IMG/VR virus record: IMGVR_UViG_3300034117_001582
Coordinates: 1 to 64,000 of that record
DNA from: a virus
Length of the DNA stretch: 64,000 nt
Direction: 5' to 3' (one strand)
Shown: in pieces, positions 9,679 through 21,671 of the stretch
Position numbering within the stretch: the stretch's first letter is position 1
How the letters are laid out: each line of letters starts with the position of its first letter
Notes under the pieces: model-generated
The model's input: only the letters and a program-made list of their open reading frames with translations
Told to the model about the DNA's origin: nothing
The model's database searches: none
Made by a program: the position numbers and the translations under genes

Positions 9679-9753
9679 GGGTAACTAATGGGAATTGAAC
9701 CCATGGCACAAGGTACCACAAACCTTTGCTCTACCAACTGAGCTATAGTCACC
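9679..9753 (-). tRNA. tRNA-His (GTG) with G-1
   Basis: Acceptor GTGACTA/TAGTTAC with an extra 5' G opposite C73, the His identity feature. Anticodon stem AAGGT/ACCTT, loop TTGTGGT (anticodon GTG), T-loop TTCAATT. Confidence 0.9.
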
Positions 9754-9934
9754 ATTTATTTGTAGTTAAGTAGCTGACACACACTCTCGTTTCACCATCT
9801 TATGTCAACAGGTTAATGCACTTTACGAGTTTCCCGTTTCTTACCACCACAATATTTTAATTTCAATGAACTTCTTCTTTCTTCACGGGAGTAGGACACC
9901 AACCTCTCACTTCCTACCCCCGTTGTTTCTCTTA
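9754..9934 (-). ncRNA. Structured leader of the tRNA array
   Basis: No gene seen in these 181 bases. They lie between the array promoter and tRNA-His and would form the 5' end of the primary transcript. An 11-bp stem with one G-T wobble (9886-9922; arms CGGGAGTAGGA and TCCTACCCCCG on the plus strand) is the strongest element. A GAGAGTGTGTG segment near tRNA-His recurs as GAGAGTGTGTT in the 9051-9222 spacer. Confidence 0.5.
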
Positions 9935-9966
9935 CAAAGATATGTAATCACTTTTGATTTGCCAAA
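9935..9966 (-). promoter_or_regulatory. Host-type promoter of the tRNA array
   Basis: Minus strand: TTTG at 9963-9966, 20-nt spacer, TATCTTTG at 9935-9942. A perfect match to the Bacteroidota consensus; the spacer resembles that of the promoter at 19607-19638. Confidence 0.8.
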
Positions 9967-11107: not shown

Positions 11108-11178
11108 AAGTTGTGGCGGGACTCAAACCTGCGACACGTCCGAAATCGGATTGCTCTAACCAACTGAGCTACACAACT
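11108..11178 (-). tRNA. tRNA, shortened anticodon arm, isotype unresolved
   Basis: Acceptor AGTTGTG/CACAACT, D-arm GCTC/GAGC and a T-arm with loop TTTGAGT are clear. The region between D- and T-arms is about three nt too short: TCCG-ATTT-CGGA leaves only four loop bases, so no normal anticodon loop is possible. It may be defective or have lost bases. Confidence 0.6.
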
Positions 11179-18214: not shown

Positions 18215-18400
18215 TTATTTTTTTGTTGTCTCAGAAACAACTTCAGTTGTTGTTAAAGTAGAGTCCGATACGTTTGTTACATCTTCACTTGAAACTTCAG
18301 TCGAAGCTTCAGTTGTTGCTCCATTTCCGTTTTCACCACAAGCAGTCATAAGAGTGATTGTCGTAAAAAGAACGATAGATAAGATAATTAATTTTTGCAT
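18215..18400 (-). CDS. Small Ser/Thr-rich lipoprotein
   Basis: 61 residues. Lipoprotein signal with lipobox LMTAC (Cys ~21) then a low-complexity Thr/Ser/Glu tail. Probably a surface-exposed lipid-anchored peptide; exclusion of competing phages is one known role for such proteins. It lies just downstream of the large structured RNA on the same strand, 28 nt after its terminator. Confidence 0.65.
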   Translation of the reverse strand: MQKLIILSIVLFTTITLMTACGENGNGATTEASTEVSSEDVTNVSDSTLTTTEVVSETTKK

Positions 18401-18428: not shown

Positions 18429-18456
18429 AAAAAAAAACCTGAGATTACAGTTTTTG
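18429..18456 (-). terminator. Terminator of the large ncRNA
   Basis: Minus strand: AAAAACTG, loop TAATCT, CAG(G)TTTTT with one bulged base, and a run of nine T. It lies at the 3' end of the structured region. Confidence 0.65.
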
Positions 18457-19342
18457 TAAGTGTCTTTCGAGTCATTATTGTTTCTACTCTTATCCACAGG
18501 ATTTTGTCCCGTAACACTCATTACCGATTGGTTAGACCAATCACCCCTTGACGATACAACTACTCTCTTACTACTCCTGTCTCCCCAAGATTGCGTCCTG
18601 GTTCGGTCTTCGACGACCTAGAGATTTTTCATAAAAATACGGTCAAACTTGCGGTTATCACGTTCCACTGACAGCCAGTGAATAGGTGGGTAACTTCCGT
18701 TATATCGTGACGAACACTTTTGCTTTTTAGTTATAAGTTTTACCTTTTCTATAAAAGTTTTTGTGTTGTGGATTAATCAAAGTTGTGGTCCGTCTTAAGC
18801 TTCATTATCTTTTGAATAACAAAATACCAAACAACTTCGTGAAATGTCCCCATTTCAATATTTCAAGACTACTTCGAAACTAACCCCTTGGTAGAAGTCG
18901 GTTAAGGTTAATAACGGCACCACCCGTACATTAACATACCTTTCGGTTTTAAGTACCCTCTGATACTGGAACACGCAATAATGAAATTGGATAACCTCAT
19001 TTTTTGCAATATCCCTACGGGTTATTCCTATTGGTGTTCCCACCTCAAATTGACAACCCACATTGCCAATTCGTCTAATCAGTTTTCCTACAGCGTTGCC
19101 CTCGGTACTCAAGATTAAACGGTATCCCGCTTGTGTACTCAAGTTCGGTTACCCAAACCGCAAATCAGTTACACTTCCGACTCACTTTATCCTACTTTCA
19201 TAGTTTATTTTATGGACTATACACGGCCCAAGACCTTCATGTCAACTACTCTTAAAGAAAGGGGGGTTAATCTCTTACTTAATTCAAGTCGATCACTTCG
19301 ATCGGTTATAATTTCAAAGAACTTTTCGGACTTTTCCGATTT
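18429..19342 (-). ncRNA. Large structured non-coding RNA, ~0.9 kb
   Basis: No convincing gene occupies this stretch. Its base make-up differs from the coding neighbours (less A/T bias, many CC/GG runs) and it is packed with short perfect hairpins. On the minus strand: TGAAATG-GGGA-CATTTCA and ACC-GAAA-GGT (GNRA loops), GATTGGT-CTA-ACCAATC, CACTG-GCTGT-CAGTG inside TCACG/CGTGA, CGATC-GAAGT-GATCG, TCGGA-AAAG-TCCGA, CGGTT-TGGGT-AACCG, GGTC-GTCGAA-GACC, and AAGTTGT/ACAACTT closing a longer domain. A consensus promoter lies just upstream and a terminator ends it. The size and setting resemble the ornate phage RNAs GOLLD and ROOL, but I cannot confirm membership. Confidence 0.75.
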
Positions 19343-19397: not shown

Positions 19398-19541
19398 TTA
19401 ATTTTTTTCTACAAACACATCATCAGTTCCGTATTTGTTAGCCTGTGCAGTTGCAAATTCAGCACTTGGCGTATAATACTTTTTCCCGTCAGACCCATAG
19501 TAAGAAAATATTAAATTTTCAACAACTAATGTTTCACTCAT
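19398..19541 (-). CDS. Small protein, 47 aa
   Basis: 47 residues (MSETLVVENLIFSYYGSDGK...), soluble, with a YYGSDGKKYYTPSAEFATAQ core that looks like a small beta hairpin plus helix. Unrecognised. It has its own perfect promoter (19607-19638) and a hairpin in its leader, and ends right before the promoter of the large RNA. Confidence 0.6.
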   Translation of the reverse strand: MSETLVVENLIFSYYGSDGKKYYTPSAEFATAQANKYGTDDVFVEKN

Positions 19542-19606: not shown

Positions 19607-19638
19607 CAAATCTAATACTATTATTTTGATTTGTCAAA
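19607..19638 (-). promoter_or_regulatory. Host-type promoter of the 47-aa gene
   Basis: Minus strand: TTTG at 19635-19638, 20-nt spacer, TAGATTTG at 19607-19614; a perfect consensus. Confidence 0.8.
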
Positions 19639-19747: not shown

Positions 19748-20104
19748 ATGAATCTTTTCATTAATGATAATATGTTTAAATGTAAAGTTTGCGTTACACC
19801 AAACTCAATTACAGATGGGATGAAAAATAAAACATTCAACATGAATTTTAATGGTATGTTTTTCATTATGCCAAACAAATCTCAACAATCGTTTTGGATG
19901 TATGAATGTATAACACCATTAGATATTGTTATGATTGATGGTGATACTATTACAAAAATACATCATAATTGCTTACCTTGTGAGGTTGAGACCTCTTGTG
20001 AAGAATACTCTGGTTATGGTAATTACATATTAGAACTTCAAGGAGGTACCTGTCATGACTCTAATATCAAAGAGGGTGACCTTATTAGTACTACCCTTTA
20101 TTAA
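19748..20104 (+). CDS. DUF192 family protein
   Basis: 118 residues on the plus strand. It follows the DUF192 pattern: GMFFIMPN, then SFWMYECITPLDIVMIDGD, then LELQGGTCHDSNIKEGDLI. DUF192 proteins are small beta-barrel proteins of unknown biochemical role, found in bacteria, archaea and several large phages. TATTTAT lies 4 nt before the ATG. Its 3' end overlaps the tail of the DHH gene on the other strand. Confidence 0.8.
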   Translation: MNLFINDNMFKCKVCVTPNSITDGMKNKTFNMNFNGMFFIMPNKSQQSFWMYECITPLDIVMIDGDTITKIHHNCLPCEVETSCEEYSGYGNYILELQGGTCHDSNIKEGDLISTTLY

Positions 20105-21671
20105 TATAATCATTTAAAACTTTAACGAATTCTTGTTGTATCGCTTTGGTTAATTGAACATAAGATGTGATATTATCCGTAGCGACTACTTGAGTATTTG
20201 TCCCTTCTTTTTCTATTTGTCTCATTGCCGCAAGTATTTGTGGGTCAGATAGTCTTTTATATTTAGATAATTTTGATTTAATATCTTTTACAAAACTATT
20301 ATTACCTTTGTAATCACTAATAACCGTTAATCTATTATCGTCATACACAACCACCGCTTCTTTTTTATTTCTATGTAGATAACTAATACCTGAAATGTTT
20401 GTAATACATTTATGTCCACCTGAATTAGCATTAATAACATCCCAACCATTAACCGTAATTCTATCCAATAAGTCTTTTTGTTTGTCTGTTAAATTTCTAT
20501 AAAGTTTTTCAGAAATATTACCAATAATGGTTAATAGCTTATCATCGGCGTTTGCGTTAAATGATTCTCTACTTCCATATATGGCAATTAAATCTTTTAG
20601 TGTGAACCCAACTGACTCGTATTCGGCTTGTATTTCAGATAGTCTTTTAAGTGTTCCAAATGTAATCTTCATTCCTTTTAATTCACTTTCAAATTTACCC
20701 AATACTTCATTTTTCATTTCACCTAAATCAATACCCTTTAACGCCCTATCCTCTTTGAATGGGTTACAAGAAGCTTGTACTAATCCTAATGGCCAAGCAA
20801 TAACTATAAAGTCAGCATCGGGATTGTTTTTAAATGGTGTATATCTATCATAAGAACCTGGTTTAATCATAGACCCACCACCGTACTGTACAATAATACT
20901 ACCCACTCTTGTTACGTTTGGATTCTCTTTTTGTTTTTCAATATAATTTGCTTGGTTTTTAACCAAATCTTCAGTACTTGCATACCCTTTAGTTGATATT
21001 TGTTTTTTAATATTATTTAAAATACTTAAAAGTGATGGCTGAGCATTTAATACTATCTGTTCTAAAAACTCTGGTTTGTTTTTAAATGCCAATAATAATT
21101 TATTTGCAACCAATCCCATTAAAAACTTGTTTGATTTTAAACTACTATCCTTATCAAATTTAAGTAAGTAATTCATAACCATTTCAGGTGATATTTTGTT
21201 AACCGCAAAATTTGCAGAGTCTACCGTCGATATGATATTAATATCTTCTGTTGGAAATATGTCTTTTGGTGATACAATTTGTGATATTGTTTCTATGTTT
21301 GATCTTGAAGATTTAAAACTTGTGGCGGTTTCTGGTTCAACACCAGCTTGTGTATCGTGGTGGTCAGTATGAATAACAAACATGGGTTTACCGTGAGCAA
21401 AATCAACCAAAACCGGCATCACATCACCACTAGCATCAGGTTTCTTAACTGAAAATTCTTTATCTCCGTATTGGATAACCTCAGCATCAACCACTTTAAT
21501 CCCGTAGTTTTCTAAATAACTTTTCATTCCTATCGCAGTGGTAACACCATCTAAATCTTGATGAAAATAAATTTTAGCCTTTTTGTAACGTTTTGATAAT
21601 TCATTAATATTTCTAATCCCCGATTCGTTAAGCAATCGTTTGTACTGTGATTCCGTTATTACCATTTTCAT
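20091..21671 (-). CDS. Tagged DHH-family phosphoesterase
   Basis: 526 residues. The start MKMVITESQYKRLLNES is a typical tag (L-N-E|S). A DHH phosphoesterase domain follows: DLDG at 39-42, VLVDFAHG, and TDHHDTQAG with DHH at 103-105. Near residue 415 NSGGHK matches the DHHA1 GG-H motif. DHH/DHHA1 enzymes (RecJ, NrnA, GdpP families) cut single-stranded DNA, nano-RNA or cyclic dinucleotides with Mn2+. A tag that could send it into the head would allow delivery at infection; degradation of cyclic-nucleotide defence signals is an attractive but unproven idea. TATTTAT is 4 nt before the ATG. Confidence 0.8.
   Translation of the reverse strand: MKMVITESQYKRLLNESGIRNINELSKRYKKAKIYFHQDLDGVTTAIGMKSYLENYGIKVVDAEVIQYGDKEFSVKKPDASGDVMPVLVDFAHGKPMFVIHTDHHDTQAGVEPETATSFKSSRSNIETISQIVSPKDIFPTEDINIISTVDSANFAVNKISPEMVMNYLLKFDKDSSLKSNKFLMGLVANKLLLAFKNKPEFLEQIVLNAQPSLLSILNNIKKQISTKGYASTEDLVKNQANYIEKQKENPNVTRVGSIIVQYGGGSMIKPGSYDRYTPFKNNPDADFIVIAWPLGLVQASCNPFKEDRALKGIDLGEMKNEVLGKFESELKGMKITFGTLKRLSEIQAEYESVGFTLKDLIAIYGSRESFNANADDKLLTIIGNISEKLYRNLTDKQKDLLDRITVNGWDVINANSGGHKCITNISGISYLHRNKKEAVVVYDDNRLTVISDYKGNNSFVKDIKSKLSKYKRLSDPQILAAMRQIEKEGTNTQVVATDNITSYVQLTKAIQQEFVKVLNDYINKG

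Follow-up and report, generated by a model that had tools for sequence, protein, structure and literature searches.

Judged by its covariance-model match and its homologues, the 0.9-kb stretch at 18429-19342 (minus strand) of the analyzed window is a GOLLD RNA, a member of a known RNA kind and no new class. It is a two-domain RNA of ~0.9 kb in which both domains are conserved and covary and which ends in a conserved 3' hairpin. The window is the whole stretch of DNA that was analyzed, i.e. the first 64 kb of a 291,867-base virus record. Our overall reading, to which we assign a probability of about three in four, is that this is the GOLLD gene of a large virus, that its RNA would form a shell and that it would be expressed by way of boxA-type host antitermination.

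Identity and extent of the RNA

Using cmscan, minus-strand positions 18839-18436 matched GOLLD (Rfam RF02032) with 285.9 bits (E 1.2e-80). The match spanned model positions 1-416 of 416 and lay 136 bits above the curated Rfam cut-off of 150 bits. A single copy of GOLLD was found in the whole contig (~292 kb). ROOL had no Rfam match, neither at the gathering threshold nor at E up to 1, and no other Rfam family was found on the element even at E up to 1. A preliminary description, made from the letters of the window, had proposed a GOLLD- or ROOL-like or a new large phage RNA, with coordinates that proved essentially exact, and had suggested the search with Rfam covariance models. It was right in kind; the new class falls away since the RNA is GOLLD itself, and the accession given there for GOLLD (RF01998) has to be replaced by RF02032. 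The distinct base composition noticed before was seen as well, with 38.9% GC in 18429-19342 compared to 31.7% in the whole window.

The Rfam model describes the 3' half of the RNA only, here the 3' domain at 18436-18839 (minus strand), and ends at 18839. A 5' part of 503 nt (18840-19342, minus strand) is located outside the model and consists of a variable leader (about 19342-19236) and a conserved 5' domain (about 19235-18840); in relatives this part is conserved upstream of the 3' domain. A motif search of IMG/VR based on the Rfam consensus identified at least 119 stretches. Among the matches listed, the 5' half of the window RNA was also matched in 109 of 120 extracted regions, and ten of the eleven regions lacking it were truncated. 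A separate scan with a motif of the 5' half yielded 74 stretches. Considering all 177 loci, those with one half only stop at or near the contig end (within about 250 nt), with the three exceptions of the divergent locus L085 and two Streptococcus prophages; the set was picked with GOLLD motifs and is no census. Because the one-half loci end at contig ends, 18840-19342 represents, as far as sequence comparison goes, the 5' domain that GOLLD has in this phage group. Thus, a domain unmodelled by Rfam is well conserved across a large group of phages.

Among named phage records, blast with the full RNA gave four partial matches only, all of them GOLLD by Rfam. These were two uncultured phages of 635-642 kb and two Streptococcus prophages. 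A second 3'-domain pattern had no match in viral contigs, and the first had none in the genome collection, hence no sequence-based identification of the host was obtained. From the type of promoter and leader described below, the host is probably a Bacteroidota bacterium.

Two other explanations of the element were considered and rejected. The fact that the 5' half is not part of the Rfam model might speak for another kind of large ornate RNA (ROOL or a new class) with no more than a resemblance to GOLLD. However, the full-length match far above the cut-off, the lack of any other family and the joint occurrence of this 5' half and the GOLLD 3' half in other viruses leave such an RNA with next to no probability. 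We give just as little weight to a protein-coding or decayed coding region, for which two TTG-start ORFs of 95 and 127 aa overlapping parts of the element could be cited. Among the homologous RNAs, the mean length of the longest frame without a stop was 87 codons, compared to 81 in shuffled sequences, and no frame was conserved across the element, in line with the earlier remark that no good gene is present; the Rfam match and the covariation argue against coding as well.

Covariation, long-range pairings and the 3' end

The alignment used comprised 55 non-redundant homologues with a mean identity to the window of 74%. The short hairpins predicted earlier are real: the consensus contained 226 pairs, of which 137 were changed on both sides. 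The 5' domain accounted for 121 pairs (96.5% canonical, 77 changed on both sides) and the 3' domain for 105 pairs (95.7% canonical, 60 changed on both sides). One GAAA loop was kept in all 55 sequences and another in 48 of them. Covariation, which had been named as a check, was assessed against our own null model, a simulation on the tree without pairing and not R-scape, with E < 0.05 among the proposed pairs. Significant covariation was found for 38 of the 121 pairs in the 5' domain and 41 of the 105 pairs in the 3' domain. At P < 0.01 the numbers rose to 65 and 56, respectively, where about one each was expected. A smaller and underpowered run with 48 sequences gave 11 significant pairs, all within the structure.

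Strong signals beyond the nested fold, all compensatory, were present at alignment columns 513-514/584-585, 542-547/711-716 and 442-446/523-527; a window coordinate is 19236 minus the column number, and all positions are on the minus strand. The first signal pairs 18723-18722 with 18652-18651, the latter located in a hairpin loop CGCAA. It was 100% canonical, and one of its pairs changed from G-C in 28 sequences to C-G in 27. The other two were 98-100% canonical and correspond to a non-nested helix between 18694-18689 and 18525-18520 and a second one between 18794-18790 and 18713-18709. In the solved GOLLD structure, a kissing contact of L20 with J13/15 forms bridge B7, and the self-kissing loop L21a, which switches between GC and CG, forms bridge B8 (PMC12286853). 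The pairs 18722-18723/18651-18652 would fit B7, and the loop at 18614-18610 would fit B8, both being matched by position and pattern only. This loop reads GUCGA in the window and CGCAA in most relatives (44 CGCAA, 10 GUCGA including the window, 1 UGCAA among the 55 sequences). Conserved parts of the 3' domain are separated by a linker at 18724-18762 (minus strand) that varies in length and sequence and in which no tRNA was found.

The RNA ends with a hairpin followed by 9 U at 18456-18429 (minus strand), a probable intrinsic terminator. The hairpin belongs to the GOLLD model. Its loop was still recognisable in 109 of 122 relatives, and in 72 of these 109 the hairpin was followed by at least 5 U in a row. 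Hairpin and U run are present where a terminator had been proposed. However, the stem is rich in A/U, and no terminator was called here by the scan, which makes this the weakest part of the preliminary description. Just downstream, a 61-aa ORF (18215-18400, minus strand) has a start resembling that of a small lipoprotein (LMTACGENG) and a weak match to DUF4969 below the cut-off.

Promoter, leader and boxA-like motif

A Bacteroidota-type promoter had been predicted upstream of the element, and an exact TTGACA-N17-TAACTTTG was found at 19379-19349 (minus strand). Two copies of this pattern were found in the 292-kb record and none in the reversed control. It is followed by a small hairpin, TCGGA-AAAG-TCCGA (19326-19339, minus strand), and then by the motif GTTCTTTGAAA (19312-19322, minus strand), an order that was the same in relatives. 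Among 63 relatives' leaders with enough upstream sequence, 61 carried the promoter pattern, and in 60 both the promoter and the motif TTCNTTGA preceded the start of the conserved 5' domain. Of 127 segments between promoter and motif, 116 contained a perfect hairpin, and compensatory variants of it were seen.

The motif was compared with the leaders of 111 16S genes that were fetched by a Bacteroidota-type 16S pattern, the motifs being learned blind from the commonest words of these leaders. The promoter motif was present in 107 of the 111 and the next best one, aAAGTTC[A/T]TTGAcA, in 106. When the latter was searched on both strands of the 64-kb window, two sites shared the highest score of 18.6 bits, one at 19312 in the leader of GOLLD and one at 9861 in that of the tRNA array; the next site reached 13.8 bits.

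The tRNA array forms a separate unit. Nine tRNAs are located at 7.7-11.4 kb of the virus record, 7-11 kb away from GOLLD, as the distance of ~7 kb given earlier implied. A tRNA at 11108-11178 (minus strand) was called by Rfam (43.3 bits) and not by ARAGORN. The leader of the array (9752-9965, minus strand) is built like that of GOLLD, with its own promoter (9965-9935), a hairpin and GTTCATTGAAA at 9861-9871 (minus strand). A tmRNA (95 bits) outside the window, at 169430-169849 (plus strand) of the record, has GTTCTTTGATA just before it, in a stretch starting at 169416. In total, GTTCWTTGAWW had six sites in the 292-kb record: the GOLLD leader, the tRNA-array leader, the site before the tmRNA, and three on the strand opposite to open frames.

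Within 1.73 Mb of viral loci, GTTCWTTGA was found at 265 sites, 145 of which were located in GOLLD leaders; shuffled words gave means of 17 and 0.13, respectively. The other sites include 28 ahead of tRNAs and 32 with a tmRNA-like 5' end downstream. A tmRNA was confirmed by Rfam in eight loci, and many phage tmRNAs found by Rfam were missed by ARAGORN. Of 353 promoter-like sites ahead of a stable RNA, 164 were followed by the motif, compared to 31 of 494 such sites elsewhere. The exact motif was present at only 10 of the 102 first tRNAs in the loci, and in 22 of the 76 related loci with tRNAs, a tRNA lies no more than 26 nt from GOLLD. All nine phage tmRNAs carried the motif in contrast to 3 of 21 Bacteroidota ssrA genes, so it does not simply reflect a host habit for tmRNA. 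Nor is it a property of all GOLLDs, since it was absent from the two Streptococcus prophage GOLLDs. In a single case, the divergent GOLLD of L085 (5582-6405, minus strand), the leader carries TTTGTTCTTTAACAGTTT, which resembles a proteobacterial boxA; this RNA has a tRNA within its span and adjoins about 25 tRNAs and a tmRNA.

The boxA in rRNA leaders of E. coli is a binding site for NusB and NusE and counteracts termination (PMC4807359; PMC10250234). The arrangement of a promoter, the GTTCWTTGA motif and an untranslated RNA is shared with Bacteroidota 16S leaders; here, however, the motif stands ahead of phage GOLLD, tRNA and tmRNA instead of rRNA. By this analogy we read the leader motif as a putative boxA antitermination signal of phage stable RNAs. 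A less favoured explanation, to which we give a minor share of the probability, accepts the GOLLD RNA and takes the motif as a signal for the processing or the start region of stable RNAs or as a relic of leaders that were borrowed from rRNA operons. It draws on the tmRNA leaders, in which no more than 17-33 nt separate the motif from the mature 5' end, a place that would suit a processing signal as well. However, the distance to the mature RNA is large in the GOLLD and 16S leaders, and the placement of the motif below the promoter and before an untranslated RNA is that of the rRNA-leader boxA (PMC10250234). What seems to be new is an rRNA-type boxA-like signal at the start of GOLLD that is also found at the tRNA and tmRNA genes of this phage, together with the conserved 47-aa gene upstream of GOLLD described below. 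A literature search of partial coverage found no paper linking boxA to GOLLD, and the paper on the RNA cage mentions neither boxA nor antitermination (PMC12286853).

According to the antitermination reading, transcription by host RNA polymerase would begin at TTGACA/TAACTTTG, and the leader with its hairpin and then GTTCTTTGAAA would recruit a Nus-type antitermination complex of the host, as rRNA leaders do. This could carry the polymerase across roughly 900 nt of structured RNA that is not translated. The tRNA array and the tmRNA of the phage would use the same signal. If this is true, the phage marks its own stable RNAs for rRNA-style transcription by the host.

Predicted shell formation and the upstream 47-aa gene

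GOLLD env-38 is a 14-mer cage that self-assembles into a hollow shell without protein and with the variable linkers inside; ROOL is another cage-forming large phage RNA (PMC12286853). The window RNA shares with env-38 the full 3'-domain model, a two-domain layout, a variable linker, the conserved 3' hairpin and a phage setting with tRNAs; the 5' domains were compared by layout. By position and pattern, some of its pairings would fit B7 and B8. Unlike env-38, the window has its tRNAs in the separate unit described above and not in the linker, and its RNA has a boxA-like leader and a linked 47-aa protein gene. With ROOL it has in common that it is a large phage RNA, but not a match to the Rfam model.

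By analogy to the solved structure, copies of this GOLLD may build a hollow shell of 14 parts on their own, with no protein involved and with the variable linkers enclosed. With low confidence, we consider it most likely that such a shell would serve the translation of the phage, in that RNA or ribosome-related cargo is held or shielded by it. The link to translation is plausible, as a lead only, because of a ribosome pull-down with GOLLD cited in PMC12286853 and the leader common to GOLLD, tRNA and tmRNA. The shell structure of GOLLD has been solved, and two testable handles are added here. The boxA-like leader would tie GOLLD synthesis to the host rRNA machinery and group it with phage tRNA and tmRNA, and the other handle is a conserved protein gene travelling with GOLLD.

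This 47-aa gene is located directly upstream of GOLLD (19398-19541, minus strand) and is itself preceded by a second promoter of the type seen at GOLLD, TTGACA-N17-TAGATTTG (19607-19637, minus strand). In a profile search it was found upstream of 111 of the 140 GOLLDs with at least 450 nt of upstream sequence. Searching with the 47-aa protein alone identified 18 loci, and all 17 with downstream room lead into GOLLD. Its family was the commonest neighbour, present in 49 of 63 well-covered loci, while the next families reached 24. With a pN/pS of 0.20 (18 sequences, pairs unweighted) the ORF looks coding and under purifying selection. No match was found in Pfam at E up to 1, PHROG gave one weak match only (E 0.14), and no relative was found among PDB sequences (best E 0.11). 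The predicted fold is strand-strand-helix-strand at moderate confidence (pLDDT 75), and the model had no significant fold match. It is a candidate GOLLD-associated protein. A further proposal, tentative and rather doubtful at present, is that in this group of phages GOLLD forms the core of a small cassette which combines this dedicated upstream protein, perhaps a partner of the RNA shell, with boxA/Nus-mode host transcription as for tRNAs and tmRNA.

Further upstream, a 526-aa protein (20091-21671, minus strand) showed a weak match to the DHH family below the Pfam cut-off; its family was found near GOLLD in 24 of 63 relatives.
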